This document shows positions 37,132 through 55,230 of a stretch of DNA of 64,000 nucleotides, piece after piece. The stretch spans positions 1 through 64,000 of the forward strand of contig JASEGV010000001.1 in NCBI GenBank assembly GCA_030017895.1, given 5' to 3'. The notes under the pieces were generated by a model, which was not told the DNA's origin, did no database searches, and worked only from the letters and a program-made list of their open reading frames with translations. Within the stretch, counting starts at the first letter, position 1, and each line of letters begins with the position of its first letter. The DNA comes from Bacteroidota bacterium. GTDB lineage: Bacteria; Bacteroidota; Ignavibacteria; UBA10030; BY39. Both the position numbers and the translations under genes were made by a program.

Positions 37132-37155
37132 TTCTCTATATATGCAAAATATAAA

Positions 37156-37202: not shown

Positions 37203-38243
37203 TTAAAATCCTATCATCACAGAAAACCATTGATTACCGGAAAAGAAAGAAGTGGAACGATATGCGTAATCTACAGACATTTCAATTCCACCGACAGTAT
37301 ATCGAACACCGGCACCAAAAGTAGGTCCAAAAATATTTTCAAATTCTGAGGGAACACCTTGAGCATAAGCATAGCCACCTCTTATAAAAAATAAATTATT
37401 ATAAGCATATTCAACACCAAAGCGATACTCATCATTTGAATAGTTATTGTTTATAAAAGTAGTGCTCATCTCTACTAAGTGTTCTGTCATTAGTGGATAT
37501 TTGTATGCAAGACCTAATTCTAACGTTGTAGGCATACCGAATCCGGCAGTTCTAAGTCGCATTGGTTGAGTCGGATATCCGGGAGTCTGATTTGGGTCAT
37601 CGACAAATCTGTCAAAATCTGAACCATCAAAACTAATTTCTGACCCCAAGTTTTTGAGTGCCACGCCGAAATTAAATCCTGTTTCACCAGCTTTGTATTG
37701 TAATCCAAGATCGAATGCAAAGGCTGTAGCGGATACACGGGTAATGGATTCATGAACCATCTTGATATTTGTTCCAAAATGAATTCTATCGGTCATTCTC
37801 CGAGAATAAGTTAAACCGATTGTTATAAATGTTGGAGAGTAAGTAATACCAGTTCCTTCGGGTCTATCAATTGTAGTTTCTTCGATTTTTCCAAAAGAGA
37901 GAGTTTTTAAACTAACACCGAGATGACCTAAATCTTCCATATTTGCAGCAACCGCTAAATAATTAACGCCGATATCTGCAATGTATGATAAATTCGAGAA
38001 CATAACCTGAGCACTGAGATTGCTTCTCGATAAACCAGCCGGATTCCAGTGTATTGCATCTAACCCCTGGGCAGTGGCTAAGATCGATCCACTCATACCT
38101 ACACCGGTTGACCCTACAGGAATTAGTAATTCGGTAGCTCCTGCAGTTCCACGCCGATTTGGTGAACCAGCAAAACTATCGATTGTGAATGTTATAAAAA
38201 GAGCTACAACTAATATTATGTTTAATAATTTCAATCTTTTCAT
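37203..38243 (-). CDS. PorV/PorQ-family outer-membrane protein (cassette B)
   Basis: A 346-residue protein with a signal peptide (LLNIILVVALFITFTIDSFA), then GTAGATELLIPVGSTGVGMSGSILATAQGLDAIHWNPAGLS, the PorV/PorQ hallmark, followed by a FadL-like beta-barrel ending VDYAYRSTSFFSGNQWFSVMIGF with a terminal Phe. Known PorV shuttles T9SS cargo to the attachment complex at the cell surface. Here it is the third gene of cassette B and is about 35 to 40 percent similar by eye to the protein at 47695. Confidence 0.82.
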   Translation of the reverse strand: MKRLKLLNIILVVALFITFTIDSFAGSPNRRGTAGATELLIPVGSTGVGMSGSILATAQGLDAIHWNPAGLSRSNLSAQVMFSNLSYIADIGVNYLAVAANMEDLGHLGVSLKTLSFGKIEETTIDRPEGTGITYSPTFITIGLTYSRRMTDRIHFGTNIKMVHESITRVSATAFAFDLGLQYKAGETGFNFGVALKNLGSEISFDGSDFDRFVDDPNQTPGYPTQPMRLRTAGFGMPTTLELGLAYKYPLMTEHLVEMSTTFINNNYSNDEYRFGVEYAYNNLFFIRGGYAYAQGVPSEFENIFGPTFGAGVRYTVGGIEMSVDYAYRSTSFFSGNQWFSVMIGF

Positions 38244-38267
38244 GACTTTTTTCCTTATACTTTCATT

Positions 38268-41200
38268 TTAGAATGTGTCAAGTCGTTCTTCTTGTATGAA
38301 TATGGCAAACTTCAACACCTTTTCACCGATTTTTACTTCCCTTCCATGCTCATCAAATCCGAAACCTTCGATGTGTGCGATATACATCCCGCTTGCTACA
38401 GGAATATTTGCATGATTTTTGAGGTCCCAGCGAGTAGAACTATTATCCATTTGGTCTTGGTAGTCGTGATTTACAACTGCTACCATATCGCCAGCTAAAT
38501 TAAAAACTCTTATCTTAGCTCTGGGTGGAAGATTGGTAAAGGTTACATAACTATCGAATGGATCAGCCTGCAATTGATGCGAGGCATAGTACGGATTTGG
38601 GACAATTTTAATTTTACGCATCTCATCGCGTTGTTTTGCGATCTCTGAAATTCCTACTTTAGGGGGTTTGACTTCAAATTCAAAAACTTTATTTGTATTC
38701 AATGCATAATTGGGCCTGATGGCTATAACATCTCCATCAGCAAAATTTGATTGCGAAGTTAGCTTGCGCATTCCTACTACATACATTAAAGGTAAATTTC
38801 CGAACTCTCTCCCCTTATAATCAACATTTGGTTTTGTGTACTCTGGCTTGGCAGAATCAGAATAAGTGGAACGGAAAACCAAAATTATTTCATCACCGTC
38901 TCCGTGATTTTCAGTCGTAAATGGGGAAGGATCCCATCTAGCATCAATTTTGCCTCTGTATACATAAACAATGCTATCTCTTCCATAAATATCTTTCCTG
39001 AGAACACGCATAGAGTCATTTCTTTCGACAATAGCTACATCCAATTGTCGTGGTTTTCCATCTCCATAAATCGAGTCAATTTCCCAAACAGTAAAGGGTA
39101 CAACATAACCACTGTCCTGAATCCCCATTCTAAATTTCTGGTAATCTTGATATAAATAACCAAAACCTGTTGAGTCTACTAAATAAGGATTGAATTCTGG
39201 ATGAATGGGACCTCTTATCGGTCTTAACTCAAAACCGTTAACATATCTATACGCTTTTTGTGTATTTGTTTTTGAAAAACGAATTTCGACCCGTCTTAAA
39301 CTATCAGGTCGTAAGTTTGAAGTTAAATTAGTATATTTACCAGTTGTTGGAAAAGTTACTACACCAGTTCGTGGTGCTATTACTCGTGGTGTTACTGAGA
39401 TAAACATTGCAGAAAGTGAATCGTCCATTGCCCTTCCTCTTACACCATAAAACCATCGTTTTCCTTTATAAGAAAAACCCGAGGGAGATTGATACATTCT
39501 ACGAACTCCAATCGGAAGTTGCTGAACAACTGGCATAACGTTAGACACCGTCGGATAGTTACCGCCACCACTAAAGTCAGTATAATTTGCAATTACTGTA
39601 TCAATGACTTCATTATTAGAATTCAATTCGAGTAACGACCATGAAGATACATCTAATGTATTGGCTGGATTACCTCCCCTGAATGTTATACGATACTTCT
39701 TATTTTCAGTGCGCCACGGATCAACAACTTTTACTTGAACCGCATCGTCATAATTTATAGCTGAGTTCCACTTATTATGTGGCACAATTGAACCATGATC
39801 ATTACCACTCGGGAATTCAGTTCCTAGAACCGGATTTTTTGGAATAATTGTAATTACTTTTTTCGGTGATTCTAATAAAATCAAACCGCTTAGGTCTTTA
39901 AGTCTTGCCGTATCCGTAACGTTATAACTTGTATCCCTTGCTGAGGCAGTAATAATGAAATGATATGGTCTGCCCGGTACAAACGGTTTAGAAGTGATTT
40001 TGTCCTCTTTCAAAACAAGACGGTCAATAATACCTTCAAAATCCCCTTCCCAAATAATGGCAAGCACGGGGTCGGACACACCCGGGAATGTAACGAAATC
40101 TTTCAGTTCCGATGAATCGCCTTTTACATAGTATGTTCCGAGTTTTTCAGTACGTGCATTAGGTCTTAAAAGAGGATCATTAGTTTGATAAATAGTAAAT
40201 GAATTAAATTTCCAGGTAGTATTAAAAAACTTCTCATCATAGTTTATAAAATTTTGGGATTTTTTATCTTTATCCCACGATAGAATAATTTTTCCATCAA
40301 CATAGCTATGTTCAACCTGGGGGCTTGGTGGAGCTGGAGGTAATTTGAAATTATTGTTGAATAAAGTTTGGGACATATCAGCATAGGTACGTAAGACCTT
40401 GATACTATTTAAGTTATTCGAACCTCTGGCGACAATTACACCGATTACGACTTGTTGTGTATCACCCGGCATAATTGTAAATGGACCAGCAGGCATCGTG
40501 AATCTAACGTCAGATGGTTCCAGTAAGCTTGAATAGAGACAGCCTGTGTTCGCAACAGGATCTCCTGCGAACATAAAATAAGTTGTATCGCCGTTACATA
40601 CCCATCGTCTTCCGGATCGAGTTAGACCTTGCATAACATTGTACGATTGCAAAAATAACCACGGATCGTACCAATCAGGATTCGTGCATCCCCCTTGTGT
40701 AGGGTTACAATAGAAATTAAAACCACTTAAATTCAAATTTTTATAACCTGGTATCAAATTCCCCGACCATTTAGCAGTATCAGTTAACACACCAGTTTTA
40801 AAACGAGGTCCTTGAAAATATTTATATCCTACAGCCGGAGGAGCAGTTCCATAAACGGGATCAGTATTAGTACCATTATAGACAAAACCTAAATTCCGTT
40901 TTTCATTTGTTTTAGGATTGAAGATTGTTGTATCGACGCCAGAAGCATCATCAAAAGCATCTCCTAAATCCGGATCAGACCATACTACTAAATAAGCAGA
41001 ATCCCATGGAGAGCTACTTTTATTAATAACTTCAAAACGCATAAATTGCATTTGACCGAAGGGGCCTGCACGATTATAAGCCCAAGATGTTTGTCGGATT
41101 TCAGCACCTAAAGGTAGACTTCGTCCCCAAATCCAACTATGATAAGCTTCTTCAGCATCATTGTAAACTGCGAACATCAACACATCCGGATAAACTATGT

Positions 41201-41756
41201 CGTTTCCCCAAATTAATGCTGGTTTATCTACGTTTGGATTATATATACCATCTTTGTCAACATCGTGAAAAGGAGCCCCATCTTGAGCAGGCCATTCCGC
41301 ATAATCAGCATTCGTGTGAGGAGAATCTTCGTTAGGCCGCACTTGATAATATCGATATTTGGAGCGGGTAAAATCGTCCGCGACACCATCTGGTAAAATT
41401 ATACCAGGACGAAACTCGGAACCAAAATGACCGACTGTAGCAACCCTGATATCCTTTTTTGTTGTGTCATCTGGGTTAACTACTCTGGCTCCAATCCACA
41501 TTGATGAAGAAAAAATAGCGTGAACTTTACTCCCTTTAGGCCACTCAAAACCAGGACCAGTAGTTTTATGGTCGCTATAAAACTCACCATCATTTCGAAA
41601 CCAAGCATTAATGGTATTAATATCCATAGCTTTCCTGTCGATAATCATTGGCTTGTGTGGTCCTAGAGCAGCTTTTCTGGAAGATTCGATATCTAATGAA
41701 TACCCCGTTGAGAGTGACAAAGTGAATAGGAACACCAATAAAAATTTTATTTTCAT
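38268..41756 (-). CDS. Large secreted protein with T9SS/FlgD-like C-terminal domain (cassette B)
   Basis: A 1162-residue protein with a signal peptide (KIKFLLVFLFTLSLSTGYS). The N-terminal part shares blocks with its paralogue at 48773: INAWFRNDG, SSMWIGAR, EWPAQDGAPFHD, WSDPDLGDAFDDASGVD, LGFVYNG, PPAVGYKYFQGP. Fibronectin-like stretches follow (PPAPPSPQVEHSYVDGKIILSWD). The C-terminus KIVPNPYYA...ATVRI-like KIRVFNLAGDMV...WDLKNHANIPVASGMYIAHIE is a FlgD/T9SS type-A-like sorting domain with an extra tail. Likely exported and surface-attached; function unknown. Confidence 0.72.
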   Translation of the reverse strand: MKIKFLLVFLFTLSLSTGYSLDIESSRKAALGPHKPMIIDRKAMDINTINAWFRNDGEFYSDHKTTGPGFEWPKGSKVHAIFSSSMWIGARVVNPDDTTKKDIRVATVGHFGSEFRPGIILPDGVADDFTRSKYRYYQVRPNEDSPHTNADYAEWPAQDGAPFHDVDKDGIYNPNVDKPALIWGNDIVYPDVLMFAVYNDAEEAYHSWIWGRSLPLGAEIRQTSWAYNRAGPFGQMQFMRFEVINKSSSPWDSAYLVVWSDPDLGDAFDDASGVDTTIFNPKTNEKRNLGFVYNGTNTDPVYGTAPPAVGYKYFQGPRFKTGVLTDTAKWSGNLIPGYKNLNLSGFNFYCNPTQGGCTNPDWYDPWLFLQSYNVMQGLTRSGRRWVCNGDTTYFMFAGDPVANTGCLYSSLLEPSDVRFTMPAGPFTIMPGDTQQVVIGVIVARGSNNLNSIKVLRTYADMSQTLFNNNFKLPPAPPSPQVEHSYVDGKIILSWDKDKKSQNFINYDEKFFNTTWKFNSFTIYQTNDPLLRPNARTEKLGTYYVKGDSSELKDFVTFPGVSDPVLAIIWEGDFEGIIDRLVLKEDKITSKPFVPGRPYHFIITASARDTSYNVTDTARLKDLSGLILLESPKKVITIIPKNPVLGTEFPSGNDHGSIVPHNKWNSAINYDDAVQVKVVDPWRTENKKYRITFRGGNPANTLDVSSWSLLELNSNNEVIDTVIANYTDFSGGGNYPTVSNVMPVVQQLPIGVRRMYQSPSGFSYKGKRWFYGVRGRAMDDSLSAMFISVTPRVIAPRTGVVTFPTTGKYTNLTSNLRPDSLRRVEIRFSKTNTQKAYRYVNGFELRPIRGPIHPEFNPYLVDSTGFGYLYQDYQKFRMGIQDSGYVVPFTVWEIDSIYGDGKPRQLDVAIVERNDSMRVLRKDIYGRDSIVYVYRGKIDARWDPSPFTTENHGDGDEIILVFRSTYSDSAKPEYTKPNVDYKGREFGNLPLMYVVGMRKLTSQSNFADGDVIAIRPNYALNTNKVFEFEVKPPKVGISEIAKQRDEMRKIKIVPNPYYASHQLQADPFDSYVTFTNLPPRAKIRVFNLAGDMVAVVNHDYQDQMDNSSTRWDLKNHANIPVASGMYIAHIEGFGFDEHGREVKIGEKVLKFAIFIQEERLDTF

Positions 41757-41782
41757 ATTAATAAACTCCTTAAAAATTTTGA

Positions 41783-44700
41783 TTAAAATTCTAAAATAAG
41801 TCCGAATCTGACTTGTCGAGGTGCACCTACATAGCCCGGTTGCATCTCGAACATATTATATATTCCAGTAAAAACAGGAACTTCATCAGCTCTATCTTGT
41901 TCTATCATTCTCCGGATTGTTGCGTTGAATTCCGGCGTTTGAGTATATCCAGTTTGATCAGGTTGACCTGAACCAGCCCATACGCTAGCAATATTTTTTC
42001 TGTCCAGCAAATTCAAAATTAATATATAAGTATTCAACCTCATATTGGAAATAGGTAATTCGAATGTTTTATCAATCCGGTAATCGAACCTAAAATTCCA
42101 GCCACTGTAATTAGCGTTAATTGTTGATTGAGGCTTTATTCGTGAGTCGGTTGGCGGAATACTTGGATCATTTAGTGTATAGGGCCTACCGCTGTTACTT
42201 CTGAATAAGAAATTCATACCGAGTTGACTTAAAAATACATTATCAGTTTTCCCGAAGCGGTAATCTAACGTAGCGGCGATTGTGTGACGCTGATCGAAAT
42301 CGAGTGGCGATTCAAATTTTGGAGCCCTTGCATTCAACCAAAGAATTATGCCTAACGTACCTGGATCGGAACCTGTACCTGTTGCATACGACAAAGTATA
42401 GTTTACAGAAGCAGCTAAATTATTCCAACGTCTTGAATCAAATGTGAGGTCAAATCCACGGACCGTGGAGTAATCGCCATTTTGAAGAGTTGAGAAGGTC
42501 GTATTGTTCCAACGTGATTCGATGAAACCTAATTGAATAAGACCAGTAATTTCTTTGTAGTATGCTGTAACATTTAAGCTTGCTACCTCCCCTAATTGCT
42601 GACGAATACCTAATTCGTATTGAGTAGTTTTTTGAGGACGTAATCTCGGATTATTTATTGAAAAATAGCCGGGTGCTAAATACCATTCGCGTAACCTATC
42701 AGAACTCATGTAAAGGTTCGAAAGTGGGGGCATCTGTGCGAATGTCCCATATTGAGCAAAAAATACCATCCTTTCAGAGACGGGAAATGAAAAACCTAAA
42801 CGTGGGCTGAATATCAGAAATGGCTTTGATTCTTCAAAACTGTCGTCTTCAATTTTGTTTGGATTTCCCCAACCGTCTGTCGGAACTGGTTTGTTTGGAA
42901 ATAATCGCTTAAAGTTTTCTGGCGACCCATATTGTGTAGTATTTTTACTATTAGCGACATCGTATAAATCTTTTAATACATCAGTGTTAGAGTCCCAATA
43001 ATCAAATCTGAGTCCGGCGTTTACTATGAAATCTTGGTACTCCATTTTATCTTGTAAATACAGAGCACTGAAAACAGGTTCTTTGGGACCTTCACTCCGT
43101 TCACTCTTTTTATATCCGTCATAATTTACTTCCCGACCGAAATAATCATAACCATAAGTATTAATATAACGTGAGGCGTATTCTTTTAGGACGTAAGATT
43201 TTTGAGCTGGAGTTAATTTATCGTACCATCCATTCCGTAATGTATCAATTATACCAGGACGAAGTAACGCTAAACTAAGAGGTCCTATTGCATAAGCACG
43301 CAATTGATGGATTTTATATTCTCCACCTAATTTAATTTCGTGTTCACCCAATTGATGTGTTATGTTTGCATTAAATTGCCAAAATGTTGTTTTATTAAAT
43401 CCATATCCATTATATACCCGACCTGGATAAGCAAATATTCCTAAATATGTATCCATCGGAATTCTTGATGCTCTCAACTTGCTGGAATCTACCCCGGGAG
43501 GAAAGTAATTGAAGAAGAGGGGATTTTTTGCAGGATCCCCATAATCGAATACTCTATCTTCATGGACAGGATCCATGTAATCAAAATAAGTATAGAAATA
43601 ACTTCCCTGAGCTTCGAAAAATGTTTTTGGTTGCGGTGCCCAGGTAACTCGCATAGTGTATTGGTCGTTAACTGAATTTGTCATCGGATTGTGGAACGCA
43701 TTCATCAATGTGTAACTGAAAACTCTTGAACGTGCCCATGTTCTTGATGAGATTCCGCCTAAGTTAATTCGGAAATCACCTAAATTAGCAGTTAATTTTT
43801 CGTTCCAAGCAAGACGGAGCGAAGCACCATCGGGCATTTGCCCAGGGCGGGCTAAATTCCAATTCGGTTGATCTAATAATAATTCTTTAGCTCGTTGATC
43901 AATTTGTTCACTCGGCAATTTGGGTAGTCTTTGAAGATCTTCTTGAATATAATTTACTGTTACTGCCTTAAATTTTGGCCAAATACTATTAGAAAGCTCT
44001 CTTAGTCTTTCAGAGTTGTAACTTGGATTTGCATCCCTGTTGAATGTATATTCAAAAGAACCAAAGAATTGTAAAATATTTTTATTTGAAGGAATAACCG
44101 GACCGCCGAATGCTAAATTATATAATTGGTATCCATTATTCCTCCACCCTTTTACTCCATCCCCCAAAAATCCATCTGTTACATATTCGAAACTACCAAA
44201 ATAATTTGGTTTACCAGATTTAGTAGAGACGTTAACAATACCACTCATCACGTTTCCGTATTCGGCACTGTATCCGCCAGTCATAACTATCATTTCTTGT
44301 ATTGCTCTTTGGCTGACAAAAGCAGATGAACCGCCTGTTAATGGATTATTCGTCCAAACACCATCTACAATATAACCAGTTTCTTCTGAACGACCGCCGC
44401 GTATATTAAGTTCGCCGCCTCTTTCACCCTGCACGACACCTGCCGTAGTGGCTGCCATTTCTCGGATACCACGAACCGGCATTAATTGAATTTGCTCTGA
44501 GGTTACTACTCGGATAGTTCCGGTCTGGTCTTTGGGTATTATGGGACGCTCGGCTGAAATCACGACTTCCTTTAGTTCTACAGCTTCGGAACTCATCTCT
44601 ATGTTTTGAGTTGTCGTGAAGCTCACCATCGCTTTTAGGTTTTTTACCGTAACCTCTCGGTATCCTACGTATCGCACAATTAAATTGTAAGTACCGACAG

Positions 44701-44905
44701 GAACATTTAACATTAAGTAATTTCCATCTAGATCGGTAACAGTTCCAATCGTTGTGCCTTCGAGCATTACGTTAACACCGATGAGAGCTTCGCGCGATTC
44801 TTTATCGATAATTTTACCATTTAACTTACCTGTTGTTTGAGCAAAGCTTATGGATACAACTATAAAGATCAAAATAAAAAGAAATAGTAACTTTTTAATA
44901 ATCAT
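41783..44905 (-). CDS. TonB-dependent receptor (cassette B)
   Basis: A 1040-residue outer-membrane receptor. Order: signal peptide (about 1-22), carboxypeptidase-regulatory-like beta-sandwich (GKLNGKIIDKESREALIGVNV... to VRYVGYREVTV, about 25-95), plug domain (VTSEQIQLMPVRGI, LNIRGGRSEETGYIVDGV), then a 22-strand barrel ending in RQVRFGLILEF. An AGGAGGAG site precedes the ATG. It resembles SusC in domain order but is not followed by a SusD gene. Paralogue of the receptor at 52267. Confidence 0.88.
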   Translation of the reverse strand: MIIKKLLFLFILIFIVVSISFAQTTGKLNGKIIDKESREALIGVNVMLEGTTIGTVTDLDGNYLMLNVPVGTYNLIVRYVGYREVTVKNLKAMVSFTTTQNIEMSSEAVELKEVVISAERPIIPKDQTGTIRVVTSEQIQLMPVRGIREMAATTAGVVQGERGGELNIRGGRSEETGYIVDGVWTNNPLTGGSSAFVSQRAIQEMIVMTGGYSAEYGNVMSGIVNVSTKSGKPNYFGSFEYVTDGFLGDGVKGWRNNGYQLYNLAFGGPVIPSNKNILQFFGSFEYTFNRDANPSYNSERLRELSNSIWPKFKAVTVNYIQEDLQRLPKLPSEQIDQRAKELLLDQPNWNLARPGQMPDGASLRLAWNEKLTANLGDFRINLGGISSRTWARSRVFSYTLMNAFHNPMTNSVNDQYTMRVTWAPQPKTFFEAQGSYFYTYFDYMDPVHEDRVFDYGDPAKNPLFFNYFPPGVDSSKLRASRIPMDTYLGIFAYPGRVYNGYGFNKTTFWQFNANITHQLGEHEIKLGGEYKIHQLRAYAIGPLSLALLRPGIIDTLRNGWYDKLTPAQKSYVLKEYASRYINTYGYDYFGREVNYDGYKKSERSEGPKEPVFSALYLQDKMEYQDFIVNAGLRFDYWDSNTDVLKDLYDVANSKNTTQYGSPENFKRLFPNKPVPTDGWGNPNKIEDDSFEESKPFLIFSPRLGFSFPVSERMVFFAQYGTFAQMPPLSNLYMSSDRLREWYLAPGYFSINNPRLRPQKTTQYELGIRQQLGEVASLNVTAYYKEITGLIQLGFIESRWNNTTFSTLQNGDYSTVRGFDLTFDSRRWNNLAASVNYTLSYATGTGSDPGTLGIILWLNARAPKFESPLDFDQRHTIAATLDYRFGKTDNVFLSQLGMNFLFRSNSGRPYTLNDPSIPPTDSRIKPQSTINANYSGWNFRFDYRIDKTFELPISNMRLNTYILILNLLDRKNIASVWAGSGQPDQTGYTQTPEFNATIRRMIEQDRADEVPVFTGIYNMFEMQPGYVGAPRQVRFGLILEF

Positions 44906-45050
44906 AACTCCTCCTAATATAGGATAAATTTAACATTTTAATTTTTTCTGAAATTTAATTTATAAGGGATAACAATAGATCGGCATAGGTATTTACTAAT
45001 AACCGATATAAACAACAATAAATTATAGTTTAATGCAAAAATTCTAACTG

Positions 45051-45079
45051 AATATAAGGAATATCCCAATGTTTGTCAA
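45051..45079 (-). promoter_or_regulatory. Promoter of cassette B (TTGACA-17-TATATT)
   Basis: On the minus strand TTGACA (45079-45074) and TATATT (45056-45051) are separated by 17 bp. The start point would be about 45044, a leader of about 139 bases before the receptor ATG. The -35 element is a perfect consensus. Confidence 0.72.
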
Positions 45080-45160
45080 GTAATCATTGATTATATTTTG
45101 AAAATTATAAACACAGCAGAAGAAACAGAAAAGGTGCCTTTTTTCAATCCGGATTCACCT

Positions 45161-47470
45161 TTAAAACGAGATCAGATTCGCTAATAACTTATAAGCCCCC
45201 TCCTGTATATTCAATAATTGGTATTGTATTGCCATATTTACATACATAATCGTTCCTTTTTCATACTTTTTGGTTACTAGAAGTGGTGTTTTATTGATTG
45301 ATGATATTATCGGAAATTCTATTTCTTTTGTTGAAGTAATACTTACTTCATTTGATGTTCGAGTGTATATCCAATTTTCGAAATCCTCATCGGTTATTTT
45401 ATTAGGGATATTTAATATTCTATGGTTTGAATCTCTTTCGACAGATGAGTGTTCATCAAAACTGAACGACCGGGTTAATTTTATATCTCGTAATAAAAAC
45501 GATGAATCCCAAAAACTTTTATCCTGAGATAACACAATGAGTTTTCCTCCGGCAGCTACAAAAGTCTCAATATTATTTAAAAAAGATTTCGAATTATCTG
45601 TTAGATTTATATTTCTATCAATAATTATTACATCTAATTTATTTGCATAGGTTTGTAATAAATTCATGTCTTTGAGTTCTATAAATTTTACATTAAGTCT
45701 TTGTAATGTTAATTTAGTTATCGAATTCGTCTGCGAAGAAATCAGTCCAACTTTTTTCGTGCGATCAACAGAAACATCATATCTGCGTGCAACAAAATTA
45801 GCTACAGGTTCCTCACCGATTTTTAATTTCAAGAGGTTGTCGCCAATCTGAATCCCCCGTTTAAAAAATAAATTCAATGTATCTAAATACTCTGCCCCCT
45901 TATAACTAAGCTTTACATTTATAGTATCGGAACTTACTAATGCGGCATCGGATACTGTAACATAGTCTGCTATTCCATCTCTCGTATGATTCGTTAGTCG
46001 AAAGACAAATTTTTCATTATCTCCGTTAGCTAACGAAGCAAATACAACTGGGGTTAATATCTCGACAGTAAAGCGAGGTGAATAATCGAAATATATCATC
46101 TGCTTATAAACAAAATTTTCTTCCTTAACATTTGCGGATTGAATAACAAAAAAATAAAACTGATTTTTGAGATAGGTTTTATCTAAATTATAAATTTCGT
46201 AAGGATAACTATACACAAGATTTGCAGGAGATAAAATGCGATACTCCTCCCCTAACATTAAAGGGTGCCTCTTTTCAGTACTTTCGTTGATAACCCAATC
46301 CTCATCACCGCCAGGGAAGAATAGTTCTGTAGTCCCATTTTTAGATAAACCAGATATAGAGTCTACCCGCAAGATAGTTAATTGGCGGTTTGTTAAAATT
46401 GTTTCGCTGATTGTATAATATAGTTTTACACCTAATAATGAATTCCTAATTTTATCTAAATTTATTTTCCAATTCAAGAATATTTTGTATTCGGCTTGAG
46501 ATAAATTCATCCTGTATGATAACTGCGTATTTACAGAATCCGATAATTTTGATAAATATTTTAATATGTCAATATTTTTGTTATTTTCTTTTACATATTT
46601 TTGGTTTTTCAATACCGACACTGCTAATAAGTCAATATCCTTCTTAATATTCTTCAGCTTGTTCGTATCATAACTTGGTAGATCGGCAATTATATTATTC
46701 AGTTTTTTAGTCTTTGAAGGAAATATTAAAGAGTAACTTGGGACACTCCGGCTCTTTAATTTTTCTAATTGTAGTGAAATTGAGTTGTAATGTTTCATTG
46801 CATCTTCACCAATTTTGCGATACGATTTTTTGTGCCTTGTATCTTTTGTATCGACAGGAATTTTGATTCCTTTTCTTGATGGGTCATCATAATAAAAACG
46901 TGATACTTTCCAATCCCCAACATCAATTATCACTTCTTTAATGGTTTTTACGAGTATATTCAAGGAAAGATTTTTACTTTCGAAATACCAATCTCGGGAC
47001 AATAGGATTACGTCGGGTTTAAAAGTTGATATTAGTTTATATAGTCTATTTTTTAAAGAGTCTTCATTCCAAAGCGAATATATTTTTTCATCATTTGAAG
47101 CTGAAATTATTTCGGGAAACGAGAGATAGTAAGTTTCTCCTTTCAGCGATGATATTGCGGTAAAGCTTTCATGTTTTAATTTAGCGGCAATCTGGTGAGG
47201 ATAATAATAGCTCGAATCGGCTTCAGTGCATTCACCGTTAGTGATATAGGCGCTCATTATTTTTGCTCCTTGCCCAAACCGATAATATGCAAGTGCTGAG
47301 AAATCTTCGTATCCCGGTTTTAAAGAAATATTTAGCACATTTAAACCCGATTTTATATCGATGCAGCTTTGATATAATTCATCGTCTGGTTTATTATTCG
47401 GAAAGACAGAACCGCTTGCCAAGATATTAGCAATTAGAAGTAAAACAAAAATTGATACACTATTCGACAT
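45161..47470 (-). CDS. PIG-L deacetylase-like protein with lost zinc ligands, plus GATase-like C-terminus
   Basis: A 769-residue protein with a signal peptide (about 1-22). Residues 40-165 align by eye with the PIG-L/LmbE fold: VLNISLKPGYEDFSALAYYRFGQGAKIMSAYITNGE, then YYLSFPEI and FKPDVILLSRDWYFES. The HPDDE zinc motif is replaced by KPGYED (51-56) and the late H-x-x-H site by non-histidine residues, so it is probably catalytically dead. A beta-rich middle follows, then a GATase-1-like tail (VGLISSQTNSITKLTLQRLNVKFIEL...GGKLIVLSQD). It lies between the two cassettes. Its base use is AT-richer than its neighbours. Confidence 0.6.
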   Translation of the reverse strand: MSNSVSIFVLLLIANILASGSVFPNNKPDDELYQSCIDIKSGLNVLNISLKPGYEDFSALAYYRFGQGAKIMSAYITNGECTEADSSYYYPHQIAAKLKHESFTAISSLKGETYYLSFPEIISASNDEKIYSLWNEDSLKNRLYKLISTFKPDVILLSRDWYFESKNLSLNILVKTIKEVIIDVGDWKVSRFYYDDPSRKGIKIPVDTKDTRHKKSYRKIGEDAMKHYNSISLQLEKLKSRSVPSYSLIFPSKTKKLNNIIADLPSYDTNKLKNIKKDIDLLAVSVLKNQKYVKENNKNIDILKYLSKLSDSVNTQLSYRMNLSQAEYKIFLNWKINLDKIRNSLLGVKLYYTISETILTNRQLTILRVDSISGLSKNGTTELFFPGGDEDWVINESTEKRHPLMLGEEYRILSPANLVYSYPYEIYNLDKTYLKNQFYFFVIQSANVKEENFVYKQMIYFDYSPRFTVEILTPVVFASLANGDNEKFVFRLTNHTRDGIADYVTVSDAALVSSDTINVKLSYKGAEYLDTLNLFFKRGIQIGDNLLKLKIGEEPVANFVARRYDVSVDRTKKVGLISSQTNSITKLTLQRLNVKFIELKDMNLLQTYANKLDVIIIDRNINLTDNSKSFLNNIETFVAAGGKLIVLSQDKSFWDSSFLLRDIKLTRSFSFDEHSSVERDSNHRILNIPNKITDEDFENWIYTRTSNEVSITSTKEIEFPIISSINKTPLLVTKKYEKGTIMYVNMAIQYQLLNIQEGAYKLLANLISF

Positions 47471-47503
47471 ACTATTATTTTCGAAGATTATAATTTATAA
47501 ATA

Positions 47504-47626
47504 ACTGAAGTTACGCAGGATTGACTTTTTGTCATGTTGAGCGAAGCGAAACATCTAAAAATAGCCTGAATTTGAGGTTTCAGATTCTTCACTTCGTTCA
47601 GAATGACTCTTTTGCGTAACTTCAGT
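47504..47626. mobile_element. MITE-like element with 14-bp terminal inverted repeats and 5-bp target duplication
   Basis: ACTGAAGTTACGCA at 47504-47517 has its exact reverse complement at 47613-47626. AAATA occurs directly on both sides (47499-47503 and 47627-47631), the expected target-site duplication. The 123-bp element is non-coding and includes the two halves of a second inverted repeat (TGAGCGAAGCGAA and TTCACTTCGTTCAGAATGAC). It sits between a terminator and the PIG-L-like gene, so it forms part of the upstream region of the latter. Confidence 0.82.
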
Positions 47627-47641
47627 AAATAATGTAAAAAA

Positions 47642-47668
47642 AAGGCTGACTTAAAAAAAGTCAGCCTT
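47642..47668 (-). terminator. Terminator of the upstream (A) TonB/PorV cassette
   Basis: An 11-bp stem AAGGCTGACTT/AAGTCAGCCTT with loop AAAAA; on the minus strand it is followed by T-rich sequence. It lies 27 bp after the PorV-family stop. Confidence 0.85.
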
Positions 47669-47694
47669 TTAAACGTGTTACATTTGGGAATTAA

Positions 47695-48741
47695 TTAAAA
47701 ACCAAGTTTAATGGATAATACATTATTCCCGTCAAAGAAATCGGTTTGTCTGTATGCGTAATCGACAATAATATCAACACCGGGTGCAGAATAAGCAATA
47801 CCAGCGCCGAATGTACCGCCGAAAATGTTTGCATCTTTTTCAGCTTGTGGAACCATACCCATACCGGCTCTTCCGAACAATTTAAGACCACTTAGATAAT
47901 AACCAATTTCACCTCCAAGTTTATATTCGTCCAAGTATAAATTGTTATTTATGAAAGTACTGTTCAAGCTAAAATGTACATTTTCTTGAAATGTGCTAAC
48001 ATAAGCAAGTCCAATCTCAATTGAGGATGGGAGTTCAAAGCTTGCTGCTTGAGTTTTGTATCTTTGTTCAGGTCTGTAGCCCTCGCTTGAAGTTGCACTG
48101 CGGTACAATCCTGTTCCATCAAATGCCATTTGCGAACCGATGTTTTTAACCGTAACACCCATATTCAAACCGGAAATATGAGCCAAGTTGCGATACATTA
48201 CACCAAAATCAAAAGCGACACCGCTTGCTGAAACACGGTCGATTCGCTCAGAGATCATTTTAGCTGTAATACCCGCCGCAACAGCATCGGTCAGTGATTT
48301 CGAGTAAGTGAGACCTAAAGTAAAATAGGTTGGTGAATATACTCTTCCTAAAAGTCCTTCAGGGTCTTCGTTTGTTGTGAGTGGAATATCGCCGAAAGAA
48401 AGCGATTTTATAGTTAACCCAACAACACCGAAATCACCAAACGAAACACCCACGCCGCCGTAGCTAACACCGATATCTCCCAAATAACTCATGGAAGAGA
48501 ACATCCCTTCAGCCCCATACTTTATCAAGCTGAGACCGGCAGGATTCCAGTGTATTGCTTCGACTCCTGAAGTGTTTGAGATGGTGGCACCACCCATTGC
48601 AAAATCGCGAGCACCCACGGGAATTAGTAATTCATTGGCTGCCGCAGTGCCTATCCTTTTATTTTGAGCCTCAGTAAAATTAAAAACAACTAAAATTACA
48701 AGGCATATTAAAAAGGCGGTATATAAATATTTATTTTTCAT
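47695..48741 (-). CDS. PorV/PorQ-family outer-membrane protein (cassette A)
   Basis: A 348-residue protein: signal peptide (YTAFLICLVILVVFNFTEA), RIGTAAANELLIPVGARDFAMGGATISNTSGVEAIHWNPAGLS, beta-barrel, and the terminal IIVDYAYRQTDFFDGNNVLSIKLGF. It is the paralogue of 37203, with the same signature and the same position as the third gene of its cassette. Terminator follows. Confidence 0.83.
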   Translation of the reverse strand: MKNKYLYTAFLICLVILVVFNFTEAQNKRIGTAAANELLIPVGARDFAMGGATISNTSGVEAIHWNPAGLSLIKYGAEGMFSSMSYLGDIGVSYGGVGVSFGDFGVVGLTIKSLSFGDIPLTTNEDPEGLLGRVYSPTYFTLGLTYSKSLTDAVAAGITAKMISERIDRVSASGVAFDFGVMYRNLAHISGLNMGVTVKNIGSQMAFDGTGLYRSATSSEGYRPEQRYKTQAASFELPSSIEIGLAYVSTFQENVHFSLNSTFINNNLYLDEYKLGGEIGYYLSGLKLFGRAGMGMVPQAEKDANIFGGTFGAGIAYSAPGVDIIVDYAYRQTDFFDGNNVLSIKLGF

Positions 48742-48772
48742 ATTTCATTCTCCTTTTAATATTATTTTAGCC

Positions 48773-51700
48773 TTAGAATACATCTGGAACTTCTTGTTCT
48801 TGAATTATAGCTACCTTTACAATCTTGGTAACCCCTACGTCAGGCATATCGACGTGAGCTATGTAAATACCGCTTGCCACTGGAAAATTATGCTCATTAT
48901 TAAGATCCCATTTAAAGAACTGTGAAGGGTCCTCTTTTGTGAGAGTTCGCACTAATTGACCAGCCAAGTTGAATATTCTTATTGTTGCTTTCGCAGGTAA
49001 TTTGTTGAATGTTACAAACCTAACAAACCGGTTTGTTTCGGCAGGATTGAAAGCATAATAAGGATTTGGATACACGCCAACTTTTTGTGCATCGATTTTA
49101 GCAAGTGCATCCGAAAATGTCGGTGCGGTAGTCGTGAACTGATACATGTCTGTACCGGCAACGATCGGGTTGGCAAACTTCACCTTATACACATCGCCAT
49201 TCTTCCACTTCGATGTGCCACCCTGTTCGAAAAAGAGCAGCCAGCCGATTTTCTGATCGTTCGGGAACATTCTTGTGGTCTGTGCCGTGGCTGCATCGTA
49301 TGGGGTGTAAATTACCACGATGTAATCGCGACCTGTCATGCGGTAACGCGGTTCCTGACCAGCCGTGTTTGGATCACCAACGAAGTTGGTATAGGGCGCA
49401 CGACCATCGGCATTACGATTAATCAGAGCATAGTTGAGCTGACGGTTGTTTTCAATATCCCAAAGTTCAAAAGATGAACGCATCTGCACATTCAAGTGGC
49501 TTGTTTCAGTGACTGTTTGTAAACCGAATGAGGTGCGCTGCCACTGCGTTGTCCATTGACCACCCGTAGTGATAGGTGCATCGTTGTTACTCAGACCACT
49601 CGCATCGTTTCCTGTGAAGCGAATTTCAAGGTCGGCTTGCATGTCTGTCAATACTGGATCCGGGGGAATGTCTGCGCCTACCATCGATGACTTGTAAAGT
49701 CCTGTCACACCACCGAAGACTGTATAATCACCCCACAGGGATAATAAACCGCCCGTTGGGGGCACGGTCTGTGCATGCGAAAGGATGGTTATAGGCGGAC
49801 TGTATGTGAGTTTGGACACGTTCACCTGCATACCATCAAAGATAATATAGTTTTCATCACCGGAAATGTTCGTCTGCTTTGCCCGTTGCGTCGTTCCCTC
49901 GTGAACGGTCCATGATCGGACCGGTGAACCCGCAACCGTGTCAATGACCCATCCGATGTCGTATGTTGCAGTTTTCAGTGCCGTCGGGTCGATCACCTTT
50001 GCAACAACAGTCGCATCACCCGAGCCGCCAGTCTTTGTAACAGTTACCAAGTCACCGTACGCTGAGGGGAATCGGGTTCCGGGATTTGTGGAGTGCGGAC
50101 GGACAGTATATATTATTGGACTTGATTCAAGTGCAGTTGGTAAAAAGTCGGTAACTGTTGACCGGCTATAAGCAGTTACTGCTAAATAATATTCCTGACC
50201 ATTATTTAATTTATCGATATCTAATATGTGATCTCGATTAAATCGAAAATAACGAGTTATTCCGCTATTAGAACCAAATTGAACTGGCAACAATAATATT
50301 TCACCCGAACTAACATCGAATTTTCGGTCGAGAATTACTGTCGGCTCTGTTTCTAAATCGAAAGTGGTAAGCCGTTTTGCTTCGGCTAAACTTGCTGATC
50401 GCCTTGGTAATTGATAAACGTTATAACCTTCGAATACAAACTCACCTGGTTGGCTAATTGTATTTTCGGTCTTATCGACTGCTGAAAGATTACTACCCCA
50501 TTCCAGAACAATTTCGCCATCGAGTTCTGCGATTTTGACAGCGGGTGGTGGCGGTGAAGGTGTTACCTGGAAGAGAGCATCGTATGTTGTTTGGACAAAT
50601 TGATCATAAAATTTCATCACATTTATGCTTGATAACCTATCGGCACCTAAACCAGCTACTGTCCCAACAACAACTTCTTGAGTATCTCCGGGTGCAAGTG
50701 TAAATGGACCGGTATTTAAAACAATTCGGCGATCACCAGGTATCAACGACCATTCTGTACCTAAACCGTCAATAAAACCTGTTTTCCGCACAGGATCCCC
50801 ATTGAGGGGGAATTTAGTTTCAGGAACTCCTGTTGGATGAGGATATAACCTCCAACGTGCTGTGGAAGCATCAGGCACATAACCTTGCAACATTCTCCAC
50901 CATCTTAAACCACCTTCATAATTAAACGGTGGATCGCTAATACCACTACCTGCAGAGAAATATGCAAAAGAAGTCATCGGCATATTTTTCTTCCCATATA
51001 CCCTCTTGAGGTTGAAAACACCAGAATCTGTTGGGAGACCGGAGACTAATGGACCTTGTAAAAAATCGTATCCAACGGCGGGTGGTTGGAGACCGAATTT
51101 TTTAAATTCTGCATCAATCGCATTACCATTATAAACGTAACCTAAACTAAGTGGTTTACCGGTAACAGGTGGGAAGAGATTCATATCTACTCCGCATAAA
51201 TCGTCACCATACGACCCTAAATCAGGGTCAGACCATTGGGCGAAGAACATACTATCGATATAAAACGATCCTTTCACTCCTCCACCGATATCAACACCAC
51301 CTTTGTTTATGAACTTAATTTTCTTGAAGTATAAATTACCCATAGCATCGGTACGTTTATAACCCCACAACGTAATTTGTGCCTCAAGCCCTAATGGCTC
51401 TGAACCAAATAAACCTGTAGATGCGCTTCGATCGAGGTCGTTGATTACTGTCCAAATAACCTGATCTGCCGGTGAATTTGGATCAGCTCCAGCAAGTCCC
51501 GGCTCATCATAATTGTGTGCTATAAGAGAATCAGTATTAAAGATTGCACCTTTTGTAACATCATAATTAAACGGTTTGGGCTTTTGGTAACCCGCTGTGC
51601 CGTTTCTTTCGATGTACGGGGCTCCATAAGCTACGGGCCACTCATCCCAATCTTTCGCGTATTGATTCGTAATTTGATCGGTTTGTGATTTTGTTACACT

Positions 51701-52228
51701 GGATACCGGAATTTCAAAAGATTCGGAGGCATCTCGTATCAGTTCTTGCATATCCATCTGGGCGTAATCCCTCCGGACTCTATAAATACGAACATCAGGA
51801 TCAGCAGGAGATTGAGCTACAGCCGATGCACCTGTACCAATGATACGACCAGCACGCGTACCAATGTTATAAGTTTGACCGCCAACACGGATAAGTTGTG
51901 TTGGTGCAGGTGTAGTTAAGCCAGAATCTGTATAAGCTTTTCCACCCCATACAAAACCGTCCTGATAAATTACCCATTTTGTTCCACGTGGAAAATATGA
52001 ACCGTCATCACCCGTGGGTGAATGGTTTTGTTGTCCGTCTGCCCGCATCCAAGTTGTGATATTATTAATATTCAGAATTTGGTAAAGGGGCGTACCTGTT
52101 GGTTTCATCAACGACATATCTTTTTGGCGATTATTTTTATCTGGAATACCAGCGCCAAAAACAGTAGAGCATAAAAAGCCGAAGACCACAACAAGTATTG
52201 ATAGTAATTTTAATTTTTTTATGTTCAT
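48773..52228 (-). CDS. Large secreted protein with T9SS/FlgD-like C-terminal domain (cassette A)
   Basis: A 1151-residue protein. The ATG at 52228 is set by AGGAG 8 bp upstream; a TTG at 52237 is too close to it. Signal peptide KLKLLSILVVVFGFLCSTVFG. Shared blocks with the cassette B protein: INNITTWMRADG, FVWGGKAY, EWPVAYGAPY, WSDPDLGSYGDDLCGVD, LGYVYNG, PPAVGYDFLQGP. The C-terminus VYPNPYYAFN...ATIRIFNLAGQLVRTL...WDLNNEHNFPVASGIYIAHVD is T9SS/FlgD-like. The section encoded by roughly 49100-50100 (residues about 709-1043) has much higher GC than the rest and no clear counterpart in the paralogue. Confidence 0.72.
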   Translation of the reverse strand: MNIKKLKLLSILVVVFGFLCSTVFGAGIPDKNNRQKDMSLMKPTGTPLYQILNINNITTWMRADGQQNHSPTGDDGSYFPRGTKWVIYQDGFVWGGKAYTDSGLTTPAPTQLIRVGGQTYNIGTRAGRIIGTGASAVAQSPADPDVRIYRVRRDYAQMDMQELIRDASESFEIPVSSVTKSQTDQITNQYAKDWDEWPVAYGAPYIERNGTAGYQKPKPFNYDVTKGAIFNTDSLIAHNYDEPGLAGADPNSPADQVIWTVINDLDRSASTGLFGSEPLGLEAQITLWGYKRTDAMGNLYFKKIKFINKGGVDIGGGVKGSFYIDSMFFAQWSDPDLGSYGDDLCGVDMNLFPPVTGKPLSLGYVYNGNAIDAEFKKFGLQPPAVGYDFLQGPLVSGLPTDSGVFNLKRVYGKKNMPMTSFAYFSAGSGISDPPFNYEGGLRWWRMLQGYVPDASTARWRLYPHPTGVPETKFPLNGDPVRKTGFIDGLGTEWSLIPGDRRIVLNTGPFTLAPGDTQEVVVGTVAGLGADRLSSINVMKFYDQFVQTTYDALFQVTPSPPPPAVKIAELDGEIVLEWGSNLSAVDKTENTISQPGEFVFEGYNVYQLPRRSASLAEAKRLTTFDLETEPTVILDRKFDVSSGEILLLPVQFGSNSGITRYFRFNRDHILDIDKLNNGQEYYLAVTAYSRSTVTDFLPTALESSPIIYTVRPHSTNPGTRFPSAYGDLVTVTKTGGSGDATVVAKVIDPTALKTATYDIGWVIDTVAGSPVRSWTVHEGTTQRAKQTNISGDENYIIFDGMQVNVSKLTYSPPITILSHAQTVPPTGGLLSLWGDYTVFGGVTGLYKSSMVGADIPPDPVLTDMQADLEIRFTGNDASGLSNNDAPITTGGQWTTQWQRTSFGLQTVTETSHLNVQMRSSFELWDIENNRQLNYALINRNADGRAPYTNFVGDPNTAGQEPRYRMTGRDYIVVIYTPYDAATAQTTRMFPNDQKIGWLLFFEQGGTSKWKNGDVYKVKFANPIVAGTDMYQFTTTAPTFSDALAKIDAQKVGVYPNPYYAFNPAETNRFVRFVTFNKLPAKATIRIFNLAGQLVRTLTKEDPSQFFKWDLNNEHNFPVASGIYIAHVDMPDVGVTKIVKVAIIQEQEVPDVF

Positions 52229-52266
52229 TTTTAGCAACTCCTTTTTAATTTTGAGTTATGTTTATA

Positions 52267-55230
52267 TTATATTTCAAGTCGTAAACCAAAACGAACCTGA
52301 CGCGGCGTACCGAACAAATCGTTTCCGGTAGCCACCATATAAGCCCAACGGTTCTGTGAATTAATGGCTTTATAGAAATCGGTGTAGTTAGGAATTTGGT
52401 GGAATGGTGTTGCCGATGGATTACCTAACCAGCCATCGTCCTGGGCAGTTCCGGTTGTTGGATATACGTTCAATATGTCCTTTGTGTTGAGTAAATTAAT
52501 AATATTTACATATAATTCAGCATCGATTACACCAAGGTTGAATTTTTTACTAAAGTTGAGGTCGATATTATATACCCAAGGAGTGGTCGAACTGTTGAGT
52601 GGTTCGGTCGGGAAGCTTGCACGAGCATCGTTCAGAGGTTCAACACCGACGTTCCAAACGTCTGCTTGTCCGATTTCTTTCAACTCTTTTATTTTAGTAT
52701 ATGCATGTCCGCTATTGAACGAGAGTATCATATTGACACCCATTTGTTCTAATATTGGACCACCATCGCCTTTAGCAAATCTGTAATCGAGCAACAATGT
52801 GCCTGAATGAGTTTGGTTAAAATCGAGCGGGTTTATGAAGCTTGTCGGACGTCCAATGTTTTGTTCAACAGCTCCGAATGAAGAGCGTGAATTCGAACCT
52901 GTTCCGCGGGCATCGGATAATGTGTAATTAAACTTTGAAGCTAATCGGTTAGTACGACGTAGCTCAAGCGTTAATTCCAACCCCTTTATTGTTCCAAAAT
53001 CATCGTTCAAGTATGCAGTGAACAATTTACTACCAGCTTCATTAACGTACGAACGAACCTGTAATTGGTCTTTTATGTCTTTGTAAAATCCGCTAACTGT
53101 AAATGCAAAATTATCAGATAACGTTTGACGAATACCCATCTCGTATTGAGTTGTTCTTTCGGGTATCATCAGGTATCCAACTGGAGTTAAGAATGCATTT
53201 CCACGAGTTATCGGACTGACTGTACGGCTGAGAGTTGTGTTTCCAATGTACAGTTGATTCAAAGATGGCATCTGTGCGTATTTTCCGTACATCGCATAGA
53301 ATACTGTTACATCGGTAACAGGAAATGAAAAACTAACACGAGGTAACACCAGATTAAACGGTTTCGCCTCCTCTAATTTTTCTTCATCTATTACATCTAA
53401 ATCAGTATTGAAATCGGGTTGTAGAGGATCTTTGAACGTTTTATTCTTCGTATCGAAGTATTCGTAACGGAGACCCAAATTAAGAATAATGTCCTGATAT
53501 TCTAATTTATTTTGTAAATAAGCTGATGCAAAAAGTGGCTTTCGTGGTGCATCGAATCCCGAACTTGCCTCATTACCATCAACATCGTAGCCATAATGAT
53601 TGATAGTTCCTGCTTTAGATAATCGGACGCGTCTTTCATAATCATCAGCGAAGGTTCGGGGTGTTCTTCCGTCCGTACCGTAGAGATACTCCATAGCATT
53701 CTGAATATTACCTACTGCATAATTGCGGGCGATCCATGAATCTAATCTGGTACCGAATTTTATTTCCCAATTAGATGTAAGTTGAGAAGTTAGGTCGCCT
53801 GCAAAACCGTAAGATGTTTGTTGGTTTTTAAAGTAAGAATTATTGGGTGCATTTTCGTGTGTCATCAAAAATGCATTAATTATGTTATAAGGTAGTGGAC
53901 CTGCGTAAGGGCGTCGGAATCCAGTGTAACCTAATTCAGCATTTTTAGTACTATCGGTATATGATTTCCAGTCGTCACCAAAATCAGGATCAACACGCCT
54001 GAAGTATCGATTCTGGTAAGAGAGTGCTACTTCGTAGTAAGTTTTTGGATTAACAACATGAGTAAATCTGAAATTTGCAAATCCGGTTGTGTTGTGATCG
54101 ATACGCGACCGCTTGTTGAAATACCGGGTTAAAGCGACGGGCCATCTGTTATCGAATGGCGATTTATCGTATGTGTAACTTCCGGATAGTTTGAACTTCA
54201 TTGATTGTAACTCATAATTCAGGTTACCCTGCCCTGAGTAATTTTGCAACCAATTGCCCGGGACATAATTCTTCTTGAATTCGATCGGACCAGGGAGCGA
54301 TCTACCGGGCGCTTCATCGTTAATATCCGTAACAATATTTTTGAAACTGAAAGGTTCGATGAACCTTAGGCTGCGATTTCTAATAAATTGATGTTGACCA
54401 GCTACGAAAAATTTTAAATTTTTCACCGCAGGACCGCTAATCGTAGCCACCATATTTGTGTAACCAAACGATGATGAACCAAGATAGTCGGCACCGGGTT
54501 TAGCAAGGTTATCGGTTAGGAAATCGACCGAGCCTTTGTAGCTGCTTTGTCCTGTTCGTAGAGTAGTTCGTGCGATACCAGAGTTTGCACCGCCAAATTC
54601 TGCAGTATAACCACCGGCTTGCAACTGAAGTTCTTCAATAGCTTCCTGAATTACCGAAAAAGTTTGTGCATTGGTAATAGGATTTGTTGTAGAAGCGCCA
54701 TCAACAAAATATGCAATTTCGCCTGAACGTCCACCGCGCACATAAAGTAGATTATCTTGATCTACTACTCCAGCTTGCAGACTCAAAATATTTTCAAGTC
54801 CACGGATAGGAAGATTTCTGATATCTTCCTGTGTTGTAACTCGGACTGTGTTGGTTGTGTTTCGTTGAATAAGCGGACGTTCGGCAAAAATATCTACTGC
54901 ATCAACTTGAACAGCTTCGCTTAGAAGTTGAAAATTTTGAGTAGTAGTAAAATTCGAGAGGACACGAACGTTTGAGATTGTAACTGTAGCATAACCGACA
55001 TAGGATGCCTTTATGCTATATGTTCCGGGTGGAACACTTAAAATAAAAAACTCACCATTGATATCGCTTGCTGCACCCATCATAGTGCCTTCGAGAGACA
55101 CTGTTGCACCAATCAGGGGCTCACCGTTAGTTTTATCGGTGATGATACCACGTAACTTACCATCTTGTGCAGATGTAACAACTGTTACTAATAGAATAGT
55201 GAGAAATAAAGCTAGTAATTTTTTAATCAT
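52267..55230 (-). CDS. TonB-dependent receptor (cassette A)
   Basis: A 987-residue outer-membrane receptor with the same order as its paralogue: signal peptide, carboxypeptidase-regulatory-like domain (GKLRGIITDKTNGEPLIGATVSLEG), plug (VTTQEDIRNLPIRGLENI, LYVRGGRSGEIAYFVDGAS), barrel, and C-terminus RQVRFGLRLEI. No SusD homologue follows. AAGGAGG precedes the ATG at good spacing. A compact operon with the two genes below. Confidence 0.88.
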   Translation of the reverse strand: MIKKLLALFLTILLVTVVTSAQDGKLRGIITDKTNGEPLIGATVSLEGTMMGAASDINGEFFILSVPPGTYSIKASYVGYATVTISNVRVLSNFTTTQNFQLLSEAVQVDAVDIFAERPLIQRNTTNTVRVTTQEDIRNLPIRGLENILSLQAGVVDQDNLLYVRGGRSGEIAYFVDGASTTNPITNAQTFSVIQEAIEELQLQAGGYTAEFGGANSGIARTTLRTGQSSYKGSVDFLTDNLAKPGADYLGSSSFGYTNMVATISGPAVKNLKFFVAGQHQFIRNRSLRFIEPFSFKNIVTDINDEAPGRSLPGPIEFKKNYVPGNWLQNYSGQGNLNYELQSMKFKLSGSYTYDKSPFDNRWPVALTRYFNKRSRIDHNTTGFANFRFTHVVNPKTYYEVALSYQNRYFRRVDPDFGDDWKSYTDSTKNAELGYTGFRRPYAGPLPYNIINAFLMTHENAPNNSYFKNQQTSYGFAGDLTSQLTSNWEIKFGTRLDSWIARNYAVGNIQNAMEYLYGTDGRTPRTFADDYERRVRLSKAGTINHYGYDVDGNEASSGFDAPRKPLFASAYLQNKLEYQDIILNLGLRYEYFDTKNKTFKDPLQPDFNTDLDVIDEEKLEEAKPFNLVLPRVSFSFPVTDVTVFYAMYGKYAQMPSLNQLYIGNTTLSRTVSPITRGNAFLTPVGYLMIPERTTQYEMGIRQTLSDNFAFTVSGFYKDIKDQLQVRSYVNEAGSKLFTAYLNDDFGTIKGLELTLELRRTNRLASKFNYTLSDARGTGSNSRSSFGAVEQNIGRPTSFINPLDFNQTHSGTLLLDYRFAKGDGGPILEQMGVNMILSFNSGHAYTKIKELKEIGQADVWNVGVEPLNDARASFPTEPLNSSTTPWVYNIDLNFSKKFNLGVIDAELYVNIINLLNTKDILNVYPTTGTAQDDGWLGNPSATPFHQIPNYTDFYKAINSQNRWAYMVATGNDLFGTPRQVRFGLRLEI

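Follow-up and report, generated by a model that had tools for sequence, protein, structure and literature searches.

Organization of the locus

The stretch of DNA analyzed here, referred to as the window, comprises 64,000 nucleotides of a Bacteroidota bacterium of the class Ignavibacteria (GTDB UBA10030; BY39; GenBank assembly GCA_030017895.1, contig JASEGV010000001.1, positions 1 to 64,000 of the forward strand). It harbors two tandem cassettes, each encoding a TonB-dependent receptor, a large secreted protein ending in a C-terminal domain (CTD) of the type IX secretion system (T9SS), and an outer-membrane barrel of the PorV/PorQ family, which together probably constitute a surface unit. An earlier note on this DNA had described two such cassettes in the same order and on the same strand; all six open reading frames (ORFs) lie where it had placed them, and the two cassettes are true paralogues.

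52267..55230, minus strand: cassette A TonB-dependent receptor P0001, 987 aa, with N-terminal CarboxypepD_reg (ORF and domain searches)
48773..52228, minus strand: cassette A large secreted protein P0002, 1151 aa, with an unmatched N-terminal domain, an FN3-like middle and a T9SS-type CTD (ORF, domains, structure model)
48776..49108, minus strand: CTD of P0002, residues 1041-1151, PorZ/PorU-like (profile matches)
48776-48811, minus strand: tail of P0002, its last 12 residues, ending in F
47695..48741, minus strand: cassette A PorV/PorQ-family outer-membrane barrel P0003, 348 aa (family score, profile, fold)
41783..44905, minus strand: cassette B TonB-dependent receptor P0004, 1040 aa (ORF and domain searches)
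38268..41756, minus strand: cassette B large secreted protein P0005, 1162 aa (homology to P0002)
38271..38615, minus strand: CTD of P0005, residues 1048-1162, of the cassette type, tail ending in F (cassette-CTD profile)
37203..38243, minus strand: cassette B PorV/PorQ-family barrel P0006, 346 aa (family score)

Adjoining genes are separated by 24-38 bp in both cassettes. The start codon of P0002 is the ATG at 52228, the mechanically called ORF beginning upstream at TTG 52237. The large proteins are homologous over their length (26% identity, E 8e-82), and the receptors (31-40% identity, E 2e-74) and barrels (42% identity, E 6e-89) are likewise related in pairs, which rules out a chance resemblance of the two cassettes. 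The region of the cassette A large gene (window positions 48001-52000) has a G+C content of 0.437, compared with 0.33-0.40 in the remaining window.

Domain searches assign CarboxypepD_reg, Plug, and TonB barrel domains to both receptors, whose SusC/RagA scores (61.8 and 82.5) fall far under the cut-off of 368. The barrels belong to the PorV/PorQ family NF033709 (143 and 174 bits, cut-off 90) and score below the equivalog cut-offs of both PorV (NF033710; 61.6 and 70.6 against 250) and PorQ (NF033711; 82.9 and 83.1 against 220). They are thus not the canonical PorV, which is encoded on contig C10 of the same genome: there, a gene with a PorU-type CTD directly precedes the highest-scoring PorV and, together with SprA, represents the canonical T9SS. 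PorV is nonetheless the top solved match of the window barrel, both by sequence profile (2e-19) and by the fold of its model, followed among folds by FadL and TodX. The large proteins match known families solely at the C-terminus (FlgD-Ig/T9SS sorting domain), and their N-terminal domain yields neither a Pfam match nor a convincing PDB match.

A distinct class of C-terminal domain

The earlier note had regarded the large proteins as T9SS-like, and a T9SS/FlgD-like domain is indeed present, in the form of a CTD of the PorZ/PorU kind. When a profile of the cassette CTDs was compared with solved structures, PorZ ranked first (1.8e-4), PorU second (1.6e-3), and FlgD followed. Conversely, the PorZ model is matched by 14 of 16 cassette CTDs, with a best value of 2.5e-13. 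Likewise, PorZ is the first PDB match of the whole large-protein model, which also retrieves the T9SS signal domain of NucA and tandem FN3 domains. For comparison, ten ordinary CTDs were taken from this genome: all match the type A model TIGR04183, and three match PorZ weakly; one of these three comes from the gene beside canonical PorV. Within the window, P0002 scores above the TIGR04183 cut-off of 23 (28.8) and P0005 below it (13.9). Both score 110-123 bits with the cassette-CTD profile, which itself includes them, and 40.6 and 20.7 with the PorZ model NF052228, a whole-protein equivalog with a cut-off of 260 that they match in the CTD part only. The type B model TIGR04131 is matched neither by the window proteins nor by any of the 16 cassette CTDs. 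A further model, NF052323 (T9SS-dependent M6-like protein), matches 6 of 16 cassette CTDs, and ordinary CTDs match it as well.

The two classes also differ in a simple spacing: a conserved W/F and a GxY motif lie 12 residues apart in all 36 parsed cassette CTDs versus 7 in 42 of 53 ordinary ones. The cassette CTD is therefore a distinct, PorZ/PorU-like class. CTDs of PorU and PorZ possess an additional hairpin that follows their fifth strand, and they escape cleavage (PMC11285876), PorU being anchored by PorV and PorZ by PorQ (PMC5562754). A review of 2023 put forward the hypothesis that cognate PorV-like barrels may shield such CTDs from cleavage (PMC10202324). By analogy, the cassette CTD may stay uncleaved and be retained on its barrel.

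Linkage of receptor, large protein, and barrel across genomes

The earlier note had proposed a dedicated three-gene system, an idea that called for linkage of the families in related genomes; strong linkage with a conserved gene order was observed at the level of the class and the phylum and in some other phyla. Querying public genomes with the large protein yielded 24 loci, in records that bear the names Ignavibacteria, other Bacteroidetes, Latescibacterota, Handelsmanbacteria, Neomarinimicrobiota, and Zixibacteriota. The barrel lies directly downstream in 12 of the 14 complete loci with a cassette CTD, and the receptor upstream in nearly all. A class sample was composed of the window's own genome and 25 others, with 3-24 PorV-family matches each, and 100 stretches taken around non-canonical PorV copies yielded 98 barrel genes. 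A cassette-CTD protein directly precedes 63 of these, and in 56 of the 63 cases a TonB receptor gene stands directly before it, most others being cut by contig or stretch ends. Another 11 barrels directly follow a receptor, mostly in the six-gene arrangement described below, and 24 occur in other contexts. At three loci (L141, L203, and L211), one or other ORF caller missed a barrel that is present; counts were adjusted for the first two.

Since these stretches had been selected around PorV, the test was repeated from the CTD side by running the cassette-CTD profile on three whole genomes. The scores are bimodal, with 25 matches of at least 69.8 bits and the next at 40.7 or less. PorV linkage was found for 23 of the 25 (20 barrels directly downstream, one directly upstream, two in the same cluster) and for the other two there was none. 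Among the weaker matches listed, three adjoin PorV, each beside the highest-scoring PorV of its genome, and are read as PorU-PorV pairs. Linkage to PorV is rare among the ordinary type A CTDs of the window's genome, which has at least 145 matches to the type A model. At the level of the phylum, barrels of the window's subtype (type I) separate by score: 48 loci in 36 of 148 genomes reach at least 269 bits, and the next value among the matches listed is 235. The surrounding regions repeat the order receptor, large protein, barrel.

A smaller PorV-family group (L104, L121, L127, L133, L134, L140, L144, and L159; ~306-320 aa, ~200 bits) has no CTD or receptor neighbor and possibly represents PorQ or another T9SS-related barrel.

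The window's genome encodes nine PorV-family copies above the cut-off, and the large-protein profile detects additional relatives. Contigs C9, C33, and C76 carry further cassettes of identical gene order, the receptor gene on C76 being truncated by the contig end, and C2 carries a receptor and large-protein pair without a barrel. On C3 (L043:5197-16473), a six-gene variant encodes a large protein, an ordinary-CTD protein, a lipoprotein-like protein, a receptor, a barrel, and another protein. This arrangement is conserved in L079, L086, L091, L092, and L102, where the third protein measures ~460-590 aa and the last ~360 aa; in such clusters, the barrel shares the cluster with the cassette-CTD gene and does not adjoin it. 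A sequence on C52 (L039:10219-11865), ~80% identical to P0002 over the portion present and truncated by the contig end, is probably a further recent cassette, or else an assembly fragment.

The large ectodomain is combined with two CTD classes. Homologues on C1 (L036:7426-10914) and C7 (L037:9977-13396) carry an ordinary type A CTD and adjoin neither receptor nor barrel, and PorV or TonB genes adjoin none of the five ordinary-CTD homologues overall. These homologues bear on the possibility that the large protein pairs with the barrel at the surface in the way of PorZ:PorQ, acting as an adhesin, in a surface layer, or in processing, with the receptor as a mere operon neighbor. The modeled large protein contains FN3-like domains, which are common in adhesins, and its contact with the receptor is something that we infer. 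On the other hand, the receptor lies directly upstream in ~95% of type I cassettes and is missing beside the ordinary-CTD homologues, and the distances of receptor, ectodomain, and barrel are nearly collinear (r 0.92-0.95). A bystander receptor appears quite unlikely, and a partnership of receptor and large protein is preferred.

The C-terminal residue of type I proteins

In type I cassettes, conservation extends to the very end of the large protein. A hydrophobic last residue, mostly F or Y, is found in all 59 type I large proteins with an adjoining barrel (all loci combined), nearly always at a constant distance from an invariant lysine. Instead, the last residue is K or R in all five homologues that bear a cassette CTD without a barrel immediately downstream. 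They fall into three groups: one comprises the C2 protein and its relative L053, another is L054, and the third is the L201 pair. As the rows of this comparison are related, a Fisher value overstates the case; the three K/R groups look independent. The type I tail is a candidate for the element that docks on the barrel. A general rule of hydrophobic termini was considered and given up, as it fails outside type I. The L201 pair (L201:244-6717) consists of two tandem cassette-CTD proteins ending in LDIR, encoded on the strand opposite to a receptor-like gene and a nearby barrel.

These observations have to be weighed against a role of the PorV paralogue as a dedicated shuttle only, in which PorU would then cleave the CTD and the protein would be released or anchored to lipopolysaccharide as type A cargo. 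PorV carries type A CTDs as a shuttle that is recycled (PMC5562754, PMC12618676), and the P0002 CTD passes the type A model. However, one common PorV suffices for many type A cargos, so a barrel reserved for each cargo points to a stoichiometric partnership. The likeness of the cassette CTDs to the uncleaved CTDs of PorZ and PorU, and a type I C-terminus constrained down to its final residue, also speak against mere transport. It therefore seems unlikely that the barrel is a shuttle and nothing else.

Probable T9SS dependence and distinction from Sus

The large protein begins with a hydrophobic signal sequence. No lipobox was found in any of 63 large proteins, which are therefore not expected to be held in the manner of SusD. 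SprA, present in the window's genome, was detected in all 76 sampled phylum genomes matching this barrel group and in 41 of the 72 without a match; since the SprA-less genomes, among those listed, are mostly of one family, this co-occurrence agrees with T9SS export without proving it. The locus-bearing genomes of Latescibacterota, Handelsmanbacteria, and Neomarinimicrobiota likewise contain SprA; one Zixibacteriota record gave no SprA match. A search for SusD_RagB, positive in a control genome, detected none in the window's genome, and the earlier note's view that the system is distinct from Sus thus holds. Its description of a "self-contained" machine goes too far because the cassette is expected to depend on the shared SprA translocon.

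SprA also bears on the nature of the barrel. Given that FadL and TodX are the next folds after PorV, the barrel might be a FadL-like channel for hydrophobic compounds within an uptake or efflux operon, the secreted protein using the common PorV. Such a function is highly improbable: PorV is the best match by profile and by fold, the presence of the barrel tracks the CTD class and not merely that of a receptor, and every sampled genome with this barrel group also has SprA.

Proposed mechanism

The most plausible interpretation, to which we assign a probability of about 0.6, is that the large protein is exported by the T9SS as the surface partner of the TonB receptor and is held in place by a dedicated PorV-type shuttle and anchor. 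Each cassette would correspond to one outer-membrane surface unit, with the receptor placed in the outer membrane. Following export by Sec, the large protein would cross the outer membrane via the shared SprA translocon. The barrel encoded just downstream would recognize the CTD and draw the protein out of SprA. Whereas type A cargo is served by the common PorV and cleaved, the CTD would stay uncleaved on its own barrel, as PorZ does on PorQ and PorU on PorV, so that the barrel would be shuttle and permanent anchor in one. The anchored ectodomain may then act as surface partner of the adjoining receptor, probably capturing a ligand, in a role like that of SusD for SusC, with CTD and barrel replacing the lipid anchor.

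Several points weigh against this interpretation. Distances of CTD and barrel are correlated (Mantel r 0.82), yet this correlation vanishes (partial r ~0) once ectodomain and receptor are controlled for; a specific co-evolution of the two was consequently dropped, since nothing is seen beyond joint inheritance of the cassette. Specific recognition of a CTD by its own barrel is presumed, as are contact with the receptor and nutrient uptake. Confidence in the structure models is modest, at 68 for the barrel and 61 for the large protein, the latter reaching mostly 80-90 in the CTD strands despite its overall value. The tail rule does not extend beyond type I, other barrel-bearing cassette types mostly ending in K or R. 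Finally, a few cassette proteins (on C2 and at L053 and L054) lack a barrel, which is not always encoded alongside. The overall interpretation of the earlier note is supported in part, namely for linkage, the T9SS-type CTD, and the non-Sus character; self-sufficiency is not upheld, and the partnership of receptor, large protein, and barrel is put forward as a likely one.

Flanking signals and neighboring genes

The following additional features surround the cassettes.

55369..55397, minus strand: promoter-like TTGACA-17-TATATT before cassette A
45051..45079, minus strand: promoter-like TTGACA-17-TATATT before cassette B
47640..47670, minus strand: terminator-like hairpin past the cassette A barrel gene
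37156..37183, minus strand: terminator-like hairpin past the cassette B barrel gene
45161..47470, minus strand: P0007, 769 aa, with PIG-L-like and DUF7408-like regions, between the cassettes
36259..37179, minus strand: P0008, NHL-repeat protein after cassette B, with an ATG at 37131

Each cassette had been said to run from a strong promoter to a terminator. Within the 20-kb region, the highest-scoring pair of promoter-like sites (11/12) does lie just 5′ of the receptor genes, one for each, and the highest-scoring pair of hairpin-plus-T sites just 3′ of the barrel genes; as the total number of such sites in the region is the same as in shuffled sequence, their placement is suggestive and no more. 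Homologues of P0007 and P0008, two genes absent from the earlier note, recur downstream of the type I PorV-family barrel in related operons, several loci (L056, L059, L166, and L193) having both, which suggests an ancestral operon in the order receptor, large protein, barrel, PIG-L, NHL, whose first three genes may later have been duplicated. P0008 shows weak similarity to the ~360-aa protein 3′ of the barrel in the six-gene clusters L079, L088, and L091.

Relation to known systems and implications

Three known systems share features with the cassettes. As in the T9SS attachment-complex pairs PorZ:PorQ and PorU:PorV of P. gingivalis (PMC5562754, PMC11285876, PMC10202324), a PorV-family barrel is paired with one T9SS-exported surface protein, whose CTD is closest to these uncleaved CTDs. 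Despite this relatedness, the cassette ectodomains are unrelated, matching neither the PorZ propeller nor the PorU peptidase, and the cassettes occur in multiple copies per genome, are tied to a TonB receptor, and score under the PorZ, PorQ, and PorV equivalog cut-offs. Type B cargo with its PorP/SprF-like shuttle (PMC12618676, PMC10994853) is similarly encoded as a cognate pair, the cargo gene being followed by that of its own carrier barrel. The cassette CTD is, in contrast, type A/PorZ-like and does not match TIGR04131, and the barrel belongs to the PorV/PorQ and not the PorP/SprF family. With SusC/SusD, the cassettes have in common a CarboxypepD_reg TonB receptor encoded beside a large surface protein; the differences are receptor scores far under the SusC/RagA cut-off, a genome in which SusD_RagB went undetected, and a partner with a T9SS CTD in place of a lipobox. 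NCBIfam names a further PorV-family protein, PorV2 (NF052325); the window proteins score under the equivalog cut-offs of NF052325 and NF052323.

Type A CTDs are said to share one carrier, PorV, dedicated barrels being a type B matter (PMC12618676). In the literature searched, which covers few subscription journals, no earlier description of TonB-CTD-PorV operons was found. Although the component families and the working principle are known, a large family of private, type A-like CTD-barrel pairs with TonB receptors was thus not found described. A broader scenario can be offered tentatively. PorV-family barrels might have expanded into many private shuttle-anchors across the Ignavibacteria and related lineages (with single loci in Latescibacterota and Handelsmanbacteria records), each paired with a single TonB receptor and a single T9SS surface protein that stays uncleaved, as an uptake machine in which SusD is replaced by a barrel-anchored partner of a SusC-like receptor and the type I tail locks onto the barrel by its hydrophobic last residue. 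Carrier specificity and CTD retention are directly testable, as the lineage provides dozens of natural CTD-barrel pairs along with its own controls: homologues in which the cassette ectodomain carries an ordinary CTD and lacks a barrel, and barrel-less versions without the hydrophobic C-terminal residue. The gene trio looks like a counterpart of the Sus nutrient systems and, if this is true, would provide an alternative receptor-partner uptake architecture for bacteria without a detected SusD.

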